From Lactobacillus acidophilus (GTDB taxonomy: Bacteria; Bacillota; Bacilli; Lactobacillales; Lactobacillaceae), in the NCBI RefSeq assembly GCF_034298135.1, contig NZ_CP139575.1:372001-436000 (forward strand): 64,000 bases of DNA, written 5' to 3'. Positions 49,154-57,286 of this stretch are shown here, piece by piece; the stretch's first letter is position 1, and every line of letters starts with the position of its first letter. The position numbers and the translations under genes are program-made. The notes under the pieces are model-generated. The model searched no databases. It was not told where the DNA came from and saw nothing but the letters and a program-made list of their open reading frames with translations.

Positions 49154-49432
49154 ATGACCTTAGCATTAACACAAAGTGATTTTAGAGCTCACATAAAAAA
49201 ATATTTAGATCAAGTAAATGACGATGATGAAGTAGTATATGTTGCTAGATCTAATAGCCGCTCAGTTGCTGTCCTTTCTCAGGAAAAATTATATTGGATG
49301 GAAAAAGCGTTGCAAGCTAAGGAGGATTCTTTAGATTATGCTATTGCTCGTGATCAATTAATTCAACGTCATGTATTACCAGATGATCCTGTTGTAAAAT
49401 CGAATGATGATTATTGGGAGCAGTTTAAATAA
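49154..49432 (+). CDS. Phd/YefM-type antitoxin
   Basis: A 92-residue protein. The N-terminal Phd fold is recognisable (LTQSDFRAHIKKYLDQVNDDDEVVYVARSN, then SVAVLSQEKLYWMEK), and the C-terminal half is the toxin-binding tail. GGGAGG lies upstream of the ATG. Its stop overlaps the toxin start by one base (TAATG). Confidence 0.84.
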   Translation: MTLALTQSDFRAHIKKYLDQVNDDDEVVYVARSNSRSVAVLSQEKLYWMEKALQAKEDSLDYAIARDQLIQRHVLPDDPVVKSNDDYWEQFK

Positions 49433-49779
49433 TGGCAAGATTACAATTTAGGCCACGTGCTACTTTCAACGCTGATTTAAAACGCTTAGGACGTCTTGAT
49501 CCAACTATTATTGATGATGTACGAGCAGCGATTGATGAATTATTAGAAAATGGCGTATTACCTGATGAGTATGACGATCATCCACTTAAGCGACGGCTAG
49601 CTGGATATCGAGAATTTCATGTTCGTGATACCCCTCACGGAAAGCACCCAAACGATATTAATGATGTATTAGTGATTTGGTACGTAGAACGTAATGAATT
49701 AATTGCAGTTGGTGTGCGAGTCGGCTCACATGATCGATTGTTTCCAAATCAAAATAGTTTAAAGAAATATCATAAATAG
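49432..49779 (+). CDS. RelE/YafQ-type mRNA interferase toxin
   Basis: A 115-residue protein of the RelE/ParE superfamily: RATFNADLKRLGRLDP, LKRRLAGYREFHVRDTPHGKHP, DVLVIWYVERNELIAVGVRVGSHDRLF. The conserved C-terminal SHDRLF (S-H-x-x-L-F) is characteristic of YafQ-like toxins, which cleave mRNA on the ribosome. Coupled to its antitoxin. Confidence 0.86.
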   Translation: MARLQFRPRATFNADLKRLGRLDPTIIDDVRAAIDELLENGVLPDEYDDHPLKRRLAGYREFHVRDTPHGKHPNDINDVLVIWYVERNELIAVGVRVGSHDRLFPNQNSLKKYHK

Positions 49780-50045: not shown

Positions 50046-51410
50046 TTGGATAAGAGAAAAGTAATTATTGTTGGTGCTTCACATGGTGGTCATGAATCAG
50101 CAATTGAGTTATTAGACAAGTACGATGACGTTGACGTAACTATTTACGAAGCCGGTGACTTCATTTCATTCATGTCATGCGGGATGCAATTATTCCTTGA
50201 AAATAAAGTTACTGCAGAAGATGATGTAAGAAACTTTGCACCTGAAGATATTGAGAAAAAAGGCGGTCATGTTTATGCCAATCATGAAGTGACTGCTGTT
50301 CATCCCGACAAGAAGACAGTTACTGTAAAAGACTTAACTAATGATTCTGAAGAAGAAGTTAGTTATGATAAATTAATTTTATCTTCTGGTGTAACGCCAA
50401 AAGTTTTGCCTGTTCCAGGTAGTGATTTAAAGAATATCTACTTAATGCGTGGACGTGACTGGGCTTCTAAGTTAAAAGCGGCAACCACTGATCCAGCAAT
50501 TAAGAACGTAGCTATCATTGGTGCAGGTTACATTGGTACTGAAGCTAGCGAAGTATTTGCCAAAGCAGGCAAGCATGTAACCTTGATGGATATGATTGAT
50601 CGTCCTTTAGGAACTTACCTTAATCCTGAATTATTGGATATCTTAGAACCAACATTTAAGGATCATATGGATCTTAAAATGGGCGTTAAGATTGAGGGAT
50701 TTAATGGCACTGATAAAGTTGAAAGTGTCAAGACAGACAACGGTGATGTATCTGCTGACTTAGTTGTGGTTTCTGCTGGTGTAAGTCCTAACACTGATTG
50801 GTTAAAGGGCACTGTTGATCTTGATCAAAGAGGCTGGATTAAGACTGATCCATACTTGAGAACTAATGTTAAAGATGTTTATGCAATTGGAGATGCTATT
50901 TTGCCATATTCAATTCCTGCAGGTAAACCAATGCCAATTGCATTAGCAACAACTGCTCGTCGTGAAGCACAATATTTAGTCGATCACTTATTTGAAGCTA
51001 AACCTGATCAAGTATTCAAAGGTGTAATTGGTGCTTCTGCATTAAGCGTATTTGATTATCATTTTGCTACAGCAGGTTTGAATCAATTCTCAGCTGAAAA
51101 GAATGATATTCCATATGGAACTAGTTTTTATGAAGATTCAATGCGTCCAGCTTATATTCCAGAAAAGGATAATCCTAAGGTTTATGTAAGTTTAACTTTC
51201 AATCCATATAACCATCAAATTTTGGGTGGTGCTGTTCTTTCTAAATATGACGTTACTGCTCAAGGCAATGTTTTGGCTTTGGCAATCAGTCATAAAATGA
51301 CTCTTGAAGATTTGGCTGAGCAAGATTTCTTCTTCCAACCCGGATTTGACCGCCAATGGAGCTTACTCAACTTAGCCGCACAACATGCCTTAGGTTTAGC
51401 TAGATTTTAA
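50046..51410 (+). CDS. nox: NADH oxidase (FAD-dependent, H2O-forming type)
   Basis: A 454-residue member of the NADH oxidase/peroxidase family. N-terminal FAD motif IIVGASHGGHESA, redox Cys45 in SFMSCGMQLFL, second NAD motif VAIIGAGYIGTEASE, and DVYAIGDAI. The single cysteine becomes a sulfenate and points to four-electron reduction of oxygen to water, giving oxygen protection and NAD regeneration. It starts at TTG 50046 with AGGAGG upstream. Peroxidase activity instead cannot be excluded. Confidence 0.88.
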   Translation: MDKRKVIIVGASHGGHESAIELLDKYDDVDVTIYEAGDFISFMSCGMQLFLENKVTAEDDVRNFAPEDIEKKGGHVYANHEVTAVHPDKKTVTVKDLTNDSEEEVSYDKLILSSGVTPKVLPVPGSDLKNIYLMRGRDWASKLKAATTDPAIKNVAIIGAGYIGTEASEVFAKAGKHVTLMDMIDRPLGTYLNPELLDILEPTFKDHMDLKMGVKIEGFNGTDKVESVKTDNGDVSADLVVVSAGVSPNTDWLKGTVDLDQRGWIKTDPYLRTNVKDVYAIGDAILPYSIPAGKPMPIALATTARREAQYLVDHLFEAKPDQVFKGVIGASALSVFDYHFATAGLNQFSAEKNDIPYGTSFYEDSMRPAYIPEKDNPKVYVSLTFNPYNHQILGGAVLSKYDVTAQGNVLALAISHKMTLEDLAEQDFFFQPGFDRQWSLLNLAAQHALGLARF

Positions 51411-51426
51411 AAAATAAAATTTCTTG

Positions 51427-51455
51427 TTGACAAACTTCATTAGTAAGATTAGCAT
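51427..51455 (+). promoter_or_regulatory. Promoter of the oppA leader
   Basis: TTGACA (51427-51432), a 17-base spacer and TAGCAT (51450-51455). A transcript would have about 215 bases of leader before oppA. Confidence 0.6.
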
Positions 51456-51490
51456 AATATTAAATTTATTTAAGAAAGGAGCTACATATC

Positions 51491-51601
51491 ATGTTAGAAT
51501 CACAAAGCGTATTAACAGTAGAATTACGACGCCGCCACCAAAATGATGGTCTATTTTGTGATTCTAAATTATGGTGTGCGGCGATTTTTGTTAAATAATT
51601 A
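51491..51601 (+). CDS. 36-residue leader peptide in the oppA 5' region
   Basis: ATG 51491 follows a strong AAAGGAG with 9-base spacing. The peptide begins MLESQSVLTVELRRRHQ and is 36 residues long. Three consecutive arginine codons CGA-CGC-CGC and a His (51527-51538) are unusual for this AT-rich genome and lie within the 5' arm of a GC-rich hairpin. A terminator and then oppA follow. I interpret it as a ribosome-monitoring leader of an attenuator. Confidence 0.5.
51493..51582 (+). promoter_or_regulatory. Interlocked hairpins (possible pseudoknot or attenuator) in the oppA leader
   Basis: TTAGAATCACAAA (51493-51505) is perfectly inverse to TTTGTGATTCTAA (51554-51566). CGCCGCCACC (51530-51539) pairs with GGTG and GCGGCG (51572-51582, one bulge), followed by ATTTTTG. 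The arms alternate (1-2-1'-2'), so the stems either form a pseudoknot or exclude each other during transcription. Confidence 0.55.
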
Positions 51602-51622
51602 ATTGAACGATTATTAAGCAAG

Positions 51623-51658
51623 GACTCACATCCCTAATTGGGATGTGGGTCTTTTTTT
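51623..51658 (+). terminator. Terminator between leader peptide and oppA
   Basis: GACTCACATCCC (51623-51634) pairs with GGGATGTGGGTC (51640-51651), one wobble, then seven T residues. It lies only 21 bases before the oppA start, so oppA transcription from the leader promoter requires read-through. Confidence 0.85.
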
Positions 51659-51679
51659 ATTGAAAAGAGAGTAAAAGCT

Positions 51680-53425
51680 ATGAAGTCAATGAAGTTAGTA
51701 AGTTCAGCAAGTTTAATTATTGGTGCAGCCTTAAGTTTAGCTGCTTGTGGTCAAAATACTAAATCTGATACTAAGAGTGCAGAAAAATTCCCAGAACAAA
51801 CGCCCCAAAAGACGGCTAAAAATGGTGGTACTTTAAATTATGCTATTGAAACAGATACTCCATTCAAAGGAATTTTTGACAGTCAATTGTCTGTTGATCA
51901 AGTTGATTCTGATGTAATGCAATTTGGTAATGAAGCATTATTTGATACTGACAATAGCTACAAGATTACTAATAAAGGCCCGGCAACTTTTAAGCTTAAT
52001 TTAAAGAAAAAAACAGCTACGATTACAATCAAAAAGGGTGTTAAATGGTCAGATGGCAAGCAGGTTGTTGCTAAATATCTTGAATATCCATATGAAATGA
52101 CTGCTAACAAAGCAACTAATAGTTTGAGATATTCAGATTCACTAGCAAATATTGTAGGGATGAAAGAATACCACGCTGGCAAGGCTAAGACGATTTCTGG
52201 AATTACTTACCCTGATGGAGAAAACGGTAGAACTATTGTCATCCACTTCTTATCAATGAAGCCGGGGATGCTCCAATCAGGTAATGATTACTTCATTGAA
52301 ACTGCAGCACCTTACCACTACTTAAAAGATGTTCCTTTTAGCAAATTAGTTTCTTCTGATCAAATTAGAAAAGATCCGCTTTTCTTTGGGCCATACAAGG
52401 TAAGTAAAGTAGTAAGAGGGCAATCAGTAACCTGGGTGCCAAACAAGTACTCTTGGAGAGGTACACCAAAGCTAAGTAAAATGGTGGCGCAAGTTGTCTC
52501 AACGAATTCTGCTTCACAAGCAATTAAGAGCCATAAGTTTGATATTGCCGATGTGGTAAATTCACAGTGGCAAGCGGTTAAAGACGCTAAAAATGTTAAC
52601 TTCGTAGCTAGAATTCCACTAGCTTATAGTTATTTAGGCTTTAAAGTTGGTAAGTGGGAAAATGGCAAGAATGTAATGGACAAGAATTCCAAGATGAACA
52701 ATAAGTCTTTACGGCAAGCAATGGCTTATGCCATGAATATCAACCAAGTTGAAAAGAGGTACACTCAAGGTTTAACTTTCAGAGTGCCAACTTTAATTCC
52801 AGCTCAATTTGGGGATTATTTTGATAAAAATACCAAAGGTTTCCCATATAATTTGAAAAAAGCCAATGAATTGCTTGATAAAGCTGGCTACAAGAAGAAG
52901 GGAAAATGGAGAGTCCAACCAAATGGTAAGCCTCTCCACATTCACTTCTTGGCAATGAGTGGTAGTGCAGTTCAAGAGCCAATCGTTCAGAACTACATTC
53001 AACAATGGAGAAAGATTGGTTTACATGTTAATTTAGCTGGTGGCAGATTAATAGAATTCAATTCCTTCTATGATAAGTTGGATCACGATGATAAGGGAAT
53101 TGATATGTTTATGGCTGCATGGTCACTTTCAACTAAACCTTCACCAAGAGGAATGTATAGTGAAACTAATCCGATGAACGATTCAAGATTTGCTACTAAA
53201 GAAAATAATAAGTTGCTTGACAAGATTGACTCTACTAAGGCGTTCAACCATAAATACAGAGTCGCTGCTTTCCATAAATGGCAACAATATATGAATGATG
53301 AAGCTTATATTGTGCCGCTTACTAATTCATATGCAATTCAAGCTGTAAATAATAAATTAGTTAACTATTCACTCAAGCCAGCAGTTGCTAACAGTGTTTG
53401 GTATAAGGTGGGTTATGCCAAATAG
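51680..53425 (+). CDS. oppA: Oligopeptide-binding lipoprotein (family 5 solute-binding protein)
   Basis: A 581-residue SBP family 5 protein with lipoprotein signal (lipobox LAAC), NGGTLNYAIETDTPFKG at the mature N-terminus and the family segments KKGVKWSDGKQV, RKDPLFFGPYKV and LRQAMAYAMN. It captures peptides for an Opp importer encoded elsewhere; no permease or ATPase gene is here. I chose ATG 51680 with AAGAGAG upstream; the open frame upstream runs through the terminator. Confidence 0.88.
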   Translation: MKSMKLVSSASLIIGAALSLAACGQNTKSDTKSAEKFPEQTPQKTAKNGGTLNYAIETDTPFKGIFDSQLSVDQVDSDVMQFGNEALFDTDNSYKITNKGPATFKLNLKKKTATITIKKGVKWSDGKQVVAKYLEYPYEMTANKATNSLRYSDSLANIVGMKEYHAGKAKTISGITYPDGENGRTIVIHFLSMKPGMLQSGNDYFIETAAPYHYLKDVPFSKLVSSDQIRKDPLFFGPYKVSKVVRGQSVTWVPNKYSWRGTPKLSKMVAQVVSTNSASQAIKSHKFDIADVVNSQWQAVKDAKNVNFVARIPLAYSYLGFKVGKWENGKNVMDKNSKMNNKSLRQAMAYAMNINQVEKRYTQGLTFRVPTLIPAQFGDYFDKNTKGFPYNLKKANELLDKAGYKKKGKWRVQPNGKPLHIHFLAMSGSAVQEPIVQNYIQQWRKIGLHVNLAGGRLIEFNSFYDKLDHDDKGIDMFMAAWSLSTKPSPRGMYSETNPMNDSRFATKENNKLLDKIDSTKAFNHKYRVAAFHKWQQYMNDEAYIVPLTNSYAIQAVNNKLVNYSLKPAVANSVWYKVGYAK

Positions 53426-56094: not shown

Positions 56095-56129
56095 AAAAGC
56101 AGCCTAGCATTATGCTAAGCTGCTTTTTC
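56095..56129. terminator. Bidirectional terminator
   Basis: AAAAGCAGCCTAGCAT (56095-56110) pairs with ATGCTAAGCTGCTTTT (56112-56127) with one mismatch; shared with the convergent metQ gene. Confidence 0.88.
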
Positions 56130-56980
56130 TATTTCAAAGTAACATCCCATGCGGCAATTTGTTTATTACCATAGTACTTTTTATAAATTTGTTTAGTTTT
56201 CTTAGTTTGGTAAGTTTTCACGATTTCGCGATAAATCTTTTTGTTTTTATCCTTAGTGCGAGCACAGATAATGTTGATCCATTGTTTAGAATCTTTGTTC
56301 AGTGGTTCAACGAAGATAGTTTGTTTATCGCCCAGGCCAGCTGGAGCTGCGAAGTCGTTGTTGACTACGGCAGCATCGACGTCATTGATTACACGGCTCG
56401 TCTGTTCAGAAGCTACTTCTTTGATCTTGAAGTGGTTAGGATTGTCAGTAATATCGGCAACCGAGACTAAGACTTTATTGGGCTTAAGTTTGATTAAGCC
56501 AGCATTTTTTAAAACAAAAAGGGCGCGTGATTCGTTGGTTGAATCGCTAGGAACTACAATAGTAGCCCCTTCAGGCAAGTCATTAAGATGATGATATTTT
56601 TTACTATATAGACGAATTGGGGCGATGTAAGTTTTACCAATTGCGCTAATACCACCATGATTAGCCTTGTTCCATTCTTTTAAAAAGGCATAGTGTTGAA
56701 AAGCATTAAGCTGTACATCTCCAGATTTTAGAGCTTTATCAGGCTGATCGTAGCCGTCGAAGCTGGAAGTCTTTACAATTACTCCGTATTTTTGCTTAAC
56801 AGTTTTAGCAACGCTTTTCCAAATCGCAATATCACCTTTACTTGCACCAACGATCCCCACTTTAACTACTTGGGGACCGCGATTAGTGGGAGAGTAGAAA
56901 AAGCTGAAATATCCAGCGATTAAAATTAACAAGGTACATGAACTAAGTATAATTTCATTACGGCGTCTTCGTTTTCTCAT
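56129..56980 (-). CDS. metQ: MetQ/NlpA-family methionine-binding protein, membrane-anchored
   Basis: A 283-residue NlpA-type substrate-binding protein: VVKVGIVGASKGDIAIWKSV, FDGYDQPDKALKSGDVQLNAFQHY, IAPIRLYSKKYH and VPSDSTNESRALFVL are family marks. The N-terminus (MRKRRRRNEI, then a hydrophobic helix) has no lipobox Cys at its end, so it is held by an uncleaved helix. No metN or metP gene is adjacent. A T-box upstream with an ATG specifier supports methionine control. AAAGGAG precedes the start. Confidence 0.87.
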   Translation of the reverse strand: MRKRRRRNEIILSSCTLLILIAGYFSFFYSPTNRGPQVVKVGIVGASKGDIAIWKSVAKTVKQKYGVIVKTSSFDGYDQPDKALKSGDVQLNAFQHYAFLKEWNKANHGGISAIGKTYIAPIRLYSKKYHHLNDLPEGATIVVPSDSTNESRALFVLKNAGLIKLKPNKVLVSVADITDNPNHFKIKEVASEQTSRVINDVDAAVVNNDFAAPAGLGDKQTIFVEPLNKDSKQWINIICARTKDKNKKIYREIVKTYQTKKTKQIYKKYYGNKQIAAWDVTLK

Positions 56981-56999: not shown

Positions 57000-57242
57000 A
57001 AAAAAGCACCCGTCCAAAAAAGGACGAGTGCTTCGTGTTACCACCTTTATTCATTATCTGCTCACGCAAATAACCTTTGAACTATCTAACAATAGTTTGC
57101 GTTGTTAACGAGCGCAACCCCGTTATTGGCTAAATATCACCAGTACAATCATTTTGAACCCATTTTCACTAAAAGCTTTTTCTTGCTTCACACCAACCAG
57201 CAATTCTCTGAAAAAAGTATTTTTAGTTACTCTGTTCATCAA
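57000..57242 (-). promoter_or_regulatory. T-box riboswitch, probably methionine-specific
   Basis: On the minus strand: AGAGAATTGCTGGTTGGTGTG (stem I apical region, 57207 downward), then TTCAAAATGATTG with a possible ATG specifier near 57150, then the T-box sequence GGTGGTAACACG (about 57043-57032) and the terminator GCACTCGTCC/GGACGGGTGC with T residues (57031-57000). The T-box bulge sequence differs from the commonest TGGTACCGCG. Order and spacing are those of a transcriptional T-box; the gene behind is metQ. Confidence 0.85.
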
Positions 57243-57286
57243 GATTTTTTAATTATTGCAATAAATTTATAACTTCATTTTAATGA

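Follow-up and report, generated by a model that had tools for sequence, protein, structure and literature searches.

A possibly ribosome-gated leader RNA of narrow range upstream of oppA in Lactobacillus

Several classes of bacterial leader RNA couple translation or amino-acid supply to the expression of the gene that follows. Leader-peptide attenuators of the his and trp type have a short open reading frame with a run of regulatory codons, alternating stems, and a terminator before the gene. In the inducible erm leaders, translation of an upstream open reading frame (uORF) rearranges alternating arms, and Arg-X-Arg is known as a macrolide stall motif. In Firmicutes, T-boxes are leaders that carry a terminator and precede amino-acid and transport genes. 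A histidine leader peptide has been described in bacilli, in a paper that also mentions ermC (PMC2965389). In the Salmonella speF leader, as presented in PMC6386406, a small upstream ORF (orf34) contains consecutive Arg codons, and the progress of the ribosome sets alternative structures. According to the abstract of that paper, the leader works via Rho, RNase G and the ribosome-binding site of speF.

The leader considered here lies on the plus strand of a 64-kb stretch of DNA (the window); it follows an oxidoreductase gene that ends at 51410 and precedes oppA (51680..53425). The latter encodes an oligopeptide-binding lipoprotein (Opp4A-like, SBP_bac_5), whose score of 502 bits falls short of the curated cut-off (650). 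The scanned minus-strand genes on the far side of oppA encode serine dehydratase subunits and an NlpA lipoprotein, and no permease was found among them. A T-box leader is present in this region of the window (57017-57251, minus strand, 100.2 bits), upstream of the NlpA-type lipoprotein gene (56129-56980). On the other side, a YafQ/ParE-type toxin gene (49432-49779) of a likely toxin-antitoxin pair adjoins a 92-codon ORF (49154-49432). In the oppA leader itself no Rfam family reaches its gathering cut-off; the best match in 51380-51720 has 24.2 bits against a cut-off of 80, and the T-box covariance model has no match in this interval. The statement in the first-pass annotation that this is not a T-box therefore holds for the families in Rfam. 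No description of the oppA leader was found among the matches listed in a search of openly licensed literature.

All of the elements on which the first-pass annotation had built its proposal of an attenuator or pseudoknot leader are present: a promoter-like site, a Shine-Dalgarno (SD) sequence, a uORF with an Arg-Arg-Arg-His run, two stems and a terminator-like hairpin. The promoter-like site, TTGACA-17-TAGCAT (51427..51455), came from a sequence scan and gives the predicted start of the leader transcript. Taken alone it means little, because the scan returned 2 promoter-type sites where 1.8 were expected from shuffles. In the alignment, TTGACA is found at the same place in all eight known copies of the leader, and the second hexamer varies. 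The SD sequence of the uORF, AAGAAAGGAG (51472..51481), lies 9 nt 5' of an ATG at 51491, from which a predicted uORF of 35 codons plus stop extends (51491..51598). Its conserved part reads MLESQSVLTVELRRRHQNDGL, and inside it are the codons CGA CGC CGC CAC for Arg-Arg-Arg-His (51527..51538). The leader closes with an intrinsic-terminator-like hairpin (51620-51654) and a U-run, the whole element (51620..51658) ending 21 nt before the start of oppA.

Between the SD sequence and the terminator, three arms can pair in two ways. Arm 1 (51477..51506) comprises the end of the SD sequence, the AUG and codons 2-5. Arm 2 (51530..51539) is the GC-rich stretch CGCCGCCACC, and arm 3 (51555..51588) has two possible partners: arm 1, in what we call fold I, and arm 2, with which it pairs through 51573-51583 in fold II. 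The first-pass annotation had described a perfect 13-bp stem (51494-51506 with 51555-51567), of which the 5' arm lies in arm 1. It is indeed perfect in the window, but elsewhere it has 12 of 13 pairs (5 copies) or 11 of 13 (2 copies). There are five perfect 13-bp inverted repeats in the window, with loops from 3 to about 77 nt, and this is one of only two with a loop of at least 30 nt. What had been overlooked is that this stem continues outward into a much longer predicted hairpin, fold I, which pairs the SD sequence and start codon of the uORF with the region after 51555. A small hairpin is predicted within its loop (51531..51550, pairing 51531-51537 with 51544-51550). The GC stem of fold II has 10 bp (51530-51539 with 51573-51583) and one bulged U in its 3' arm, and its 5' arm overlaps the Arg run.

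The interlocking of the 13-bp and GC stems was correctly noted, in that their arms do alternate. The GC stem shares part of the 3' arm of the long hairpin, however, so the folding models favour two alternative structures, the long hairpin or the GC stem, over a pseudoknot. A simultaneous pseudoknot was set aside as the resting fold: in the window the lowest energy is predicted for fold I, which occupies part of the 3' arm of the GC stem. An H-type geometry has the alternating arms that it needs, but a linker of 5 nt would need to span 13 bp, as judged from the arm positions and secondary-structure folding.

In the window the predicted structure is very stable. The leader without its terminator folds at -41.7 kcal/mol (z = -6.4) and with its terminator has a z of -7.8; none of 200 shuffles was as good in either case. 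The copies G027, kit1 and G007, folded singly, are only moderately stable (z -2.46, -2.36 and -2.47), each being equalled by 3 of 200 shuffles; stability as extreme as in the window may thus be a peculiarity of that copy. When arm 1 is masked, the best predicted fold pairs arm 2 with arm 3 in all eight copies (in a slipped register in G007), and in all eight the GC stem could also form in a slipped register of 7 bp. With the core alone and no masks, fold II is best in three of the eight copies (G027, G030 and G024). Over the full ensemble, computed for five of the eight copies, fold II has a predicted weight of 0.22 in G027 and 0.18 in G061, and of about 0 in the other three (the window, kit1 and G007).

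The leader has a narrow range. A covariance model finds 8 copies in 7 of 75 genomes of the genus (E <= 1.6e-30), and each of the eight immediately precedes the same oppA orthologue, whether that gene is intact or broken. In a sample of the family, it is found in 3 of 301 genomes and in 1 of 40 genera, with no match in the 39 other Lactobacillaceae genera; both searches used the stricter filters of Infernal with 53 or 13 candidates scored per genome, under which weak relatives may be missed. Four further genomes of the genus gave matches at E 0.028-0.072 that we took as chance: they score 21.6-22.6 bits where the leader copies have 122.6-127.5, and their flanks, inspected by eye, look protein-coding. 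A blastn search of 60 genomes, including that of the window, gave four strong matches besides the window itself. At E <= 0.01, 17 of the 60 genomes had a match, from which the short ones (<=43 bits, in 12 genomes) were dropped without individual inspection; loci L001-L006 and L012-L024 were left out. A degenerate pattern, run against single genomes of 84,980 species, matched six stretches, all in Lactobacillus (L. ultunensis, L. kitasatonis twice, L. gallinarum and two uncultured species). The same pattern had no match in viral contigs, and the leader was not found in plasmids.

Homologues of oppA are far more widespread, occurring in 73 of the 75 genomes. Among the oppA matches listed, identity of at least 88% is confined to leader-bearing genomes and the next value is 72%, so the leader seems to belong to one oppA lineage. 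The seventh leader-bearing genome, G007, has a broken oppA behind the leader, with pieces of 75 to 83% identity. Two close oppA paralogues in the window's own genome have no such leader, and none was seen by eye in 46 upstream regions of listed oppA homologues below 85% identity. In a crude scan, 6 of these 46 regions had a terminator-like site within 90 nt of the start codon, five at about -80 and a weak one at -8. Conservation in Lactobacillus oppA genes, which the first-pass annotation had set as a check, is thus found for this particular oppA (8 copies) but not for the other oppA genes of the genus that were examined. Many of the other Opp4A-type oppA genes of the genus (e.g., loci L044, L051, L058 and L063) have an AT(C/T)AACTTG-like motif just past the presumed -10 box, which is possibly a common control element of an opp regulon. 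Some of these genes also have a short CCAA...TTGG repeat 5' of the SD sequence.

Where the leader occurs, its core is strongly constrained. Over 118 columns the window and G027 differ at 7, compared with 23 of 80 in the linker and terminator (gap columns counted; Fisher 3e-5), while 20.8% of bases differ between their oppA genes. Among codons that encode the same residue, 1 of 19 has changed in uORF codons 1-21, compared with 240 of 494 in oppA (Fisher 8e-5), and at fourfold sites the figures are 0 of 7 and 103 of 186. These tests treat sites as independent, and the comparison took in only the five copies with an intact oppA. Four of these five carry almost the same leader, so few independent lineages stand behind the comparison.

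The constraint looks like one on nucleotides rather than on the peptide. Codons 1-21 of the uORF align without gaps in all copies, and its nine variable columns fall at codon positions 1, 2 and 3 in the numbers 4, 3 and 2, with no excess at the third. After codon 21 the frame is shifted in four of the eight copies; the second half is not conserved as protein, and its nucleotides are conserved nonetheless. The frame is open in seven copies, and kit2 has a stop at codon 5. The uORF thus shows no visible selection at the peptide level in this alignment. The loop of fold I and its stems are conserved to about the same degree. In the eight-copy alignment, 98.0% of the cells of the fold I helix are paired. 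Position 33/98 of the 13-bp stem, a mismatch in seven of the eight copies (four of them with an intact oppA), is absent from the counted structure. Covariation, which had been suggested as a check, does not rise above chance: 67 of 500 shuffles reach its score, for a structure derived from the same alignment that was scored, and the sole pair that has changed on both sides and been kept is in the terminator.

The sign of ribosome binding comes instead from the SD sequence. Both it and the ATG are invariant in all eight copies. The SD strand (alignment columns 3-16) has 0 of 14 variable columns, whereas the strand that faces it in fold I has 10 of 18, two of them gap columns (Fisher 0.001); among the copies with an intact oppA, 7 of the 18 vary. 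Pairing alone would not be expected to leave this pattern, and we suspect that the SD sequence is used by ribosomes. On this point the ribosome-binding site of the first-pass annotation has gained support.

The Arg run is harder to read. It consists of one rare and two moderately used codons, given that the nine genes of the window that were counted have 87 Arg codons, of which 4 are CGA and 15 CGC. Five copies have Arg-Arg-Arg-His and three have Arg-Arg-His-His, the latter being those with a broken oppA. Because the same bases build the GC arm, conservation of the run cannot be credited to the sensing of arginine and may be structural. The proposal that the leader senses Arg- or His-tRNA as such has therefore lost ground: the variable uORF columns are not enriched at third codon positions, three copies have His in place of the third Arg, and the run doubles as a stem arm.

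Further clues come from the copies in which oppA is broken by frameshifts or deletions, behind the leaders kit1, kit2 and G007. These broken genes (loci L028, L029 and L027) belong to both L. kitasatonis copies and to the uncultured species G007. The GC stem has 10 of 10 pairs in all five copies with an intact oppA, and 9, 9 and 7 of 10 in the three with a broken one. The 13-bp stem keeps at least 12 of 13 pairs in the five intact-oppA copies. Every unpaired cell in the counted structure, whether in fold I or in the terminator, belongs to one of the three broken-oppA copies, as does every mismatch in the 10-bp register of the GC stem; the change from Arg to His and the only stop in the uORF are found there too. 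This pattern of lesions fits a leader that acts through oppA, with the restriction that the contrast holds two independent cases at most, kit1 and kit2 being near-identical and G007 one lineage. Recombination seems to have reshuffled leader and oppA, because kit1 joins a window-type linker (1 difference from the window compared with 15 from G027) to a G027-type oppA (93.9% identity, compared with 78.4% to the window type).

The terminator-like hairpin is kept in all eight aligned copies, so the intrinsic terminator expected of an attenuator in front of oppA is present as far as sequence and alignment can tell. The second part of a classical attenuator, an anti-terminator, did not appear. With five masks applied to five of the eight copies, all 25 resulting states contained the terminator hairpin. 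In G007, the SD region takes the lowest pairs of the terminator and the U-run in three of five masked states, and in G061 it pairs beyond the terminator hairpin in one of five. When the terminator arms were searched for duplexes with the leader sequence upstream of them, again in five of the eight copies, every partner was weaker than the hairpin. The 3' arm pairs best with the SD-start region in five of five copies (columns 8 or 9 to 26); this duplex falls short of the terminator hairpin by 8.5 to 9.7 kcal/mol (3.8 in G007), and mononucleotide shuffles match it 6, 116, 8, 55 and 46 times in 200 for the window, kit1, G007, G027 and G061, respectively. Partners of the 5' arm are matched 86, 158, 28, 92 and 86 times for the window, kit1, G007, G027 and G061. 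Predicted pairing of the SD-start region with the terminator 3' arm is thus a weak lead only. Classical attenuation, in which a stalled ribosome frees an anti-terminator, was rejected because, in the five of eight copies examined, the hairpin formed in every state and the upstream partners of its arms were weaker and in most cases equalled by shuffles.

Given these results, the account that we favour, tentatively and at somewhat less than an even chance, is that of a narrow-range, cis-acting, ribosome-gated leader of oppA that probably acts on passage of the predicted terminator. In this scenario, the leader would have a promoter of its own from which its transcript starts, and ribosomes would translate the uORF. 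Entry of a ribosome on the 35-codon uORF would open the predicted hairpin that hides the uORF's own ribosome-binding site. The models suggest that arm 3 pairs either with arm 1, hiding the SD sequence and AUG, or with arm 2, leaving both free. A ribosome on arm 1 would favour fold II; a ribosome paused on the Arg codons, and thus on arm 2, would favour fold I and shut off further initiation. The choice of fold would then alter the output of oppA, likely via read-through past the predicted terminator, an outcome suggested by the place of the terminator before the gene. Decay of the mRNA, the main alternative and one with a parallel in the Salmonella speF leader (PMC6386406), or its processing could equally be the last step, because no convincing pairing that displaces the terminator was found. 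A bolder version is improbable: a self-gating sensor in an RNA of about 195 nt, in which the uORF start, the Arg run and the third arm compete, the first ribosome decides on later entry, and the freed start arm reaches the 3' arm of the terminator, so that amino-acid supply is tied to peptide uptake.

Several other explanations have to be set against ribosome gating. Much of what was said about the uORF would suit a structured RNA switch or a protein-binding site that works without translation, in which the uORF would be incidental and its Arg codons a by-product of the GC arm. The even spread of variable columns over the codon positions, the conservation of nucleotides across the frameshift after codon 21, and the loop that is conserved about as well as the stems all agree with it. 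We nevertheless consider such a switch unlikely, since the SD sequence is invariant while its facing strand varies, no Rfam family matches at its gathering score, and the range is very narrow for an aptamer. The element also has its own promoter-like site and terminator-like hairpin, and it persists in three copies in which oppA is broken, as might be expected of a separate gene of about 195 nt for a small RNA or small protein, with oppA fed by constitutive read-through only. All eight copies nonetheless precede oppA, intact or broken, and the unpaired cells of fold I, the GC-stem mismatches, the Arg-to-His change and the one uORF stop track the broken genes. Against a small RNA, the complement of part of the loop has no match elsewhere in the genome with up to 3 mismatches (G-U pairs disallowed), and against a small protein, the second half of the uORF is not conserved as one. 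A separate gene of either kind is accordingly quite unlikely.

It is also conceivable, with a similarly small chance, that the 5' hairpin and the strong SD sequence merely stabilise the mRNA and that the terminator simply ends transcription of the upstream oxidoreductase gene. The hairpin does start only a few nucleotides past the inferred RNA start, and in the window just 16 nt, with no hairpin, separate the upstream gene from the leader promoter. In G027, G030 and G024, however, the sequence upstream is not the end of an oxidoreductase gene and by eye already has a terminator-like hairpin, and the terminator of the leader is still kept. Moreover, an oppA transcript from the leader promoter has to cross that terminator.

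If the uORF does gate oppA, peptide uptake in Lactobacillus, whose members depend on peptides, would be controlled by the ribosome rather than by a T-box or a repressor. The use of the uORF initiation site as an arm of the switch would, if true, be an unusual variant of the leader peptide.

Compared with the his and trp attenuators, the oppA leader has the same short ORF, a regulatory-looking codon run, alternating stems and a terminator-like hairpin, but lacks a convincing anti-terminator pairing and any visible selection on its peptide. It is somewhat attenuator-like, and cannot be filed as a leader-peptide attenuator because the anti-terminator is wanting. The erm leaders are similar in that translation of a uORF is proposed to rearrange alternating arms, and the Arg run recalls Arg-X-Arg. 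Unlike them, the oppA leader precedes a gene for a peptide-binding protein rather than a resistance gene, and the start that is predicted to be sequestered is that of the uORF itself. With the speF leader as described in PMC6386406, the oppA leader shares a uORF with consecutive Arg codons, alternative structures and, as proposed here, control of the downstream gene. It differs from the speF leader in having an intrinsic-terminator-like hairpin and in using the SD sequence of the uORF as one of its arms, and we claim no relation in sequence between the two.
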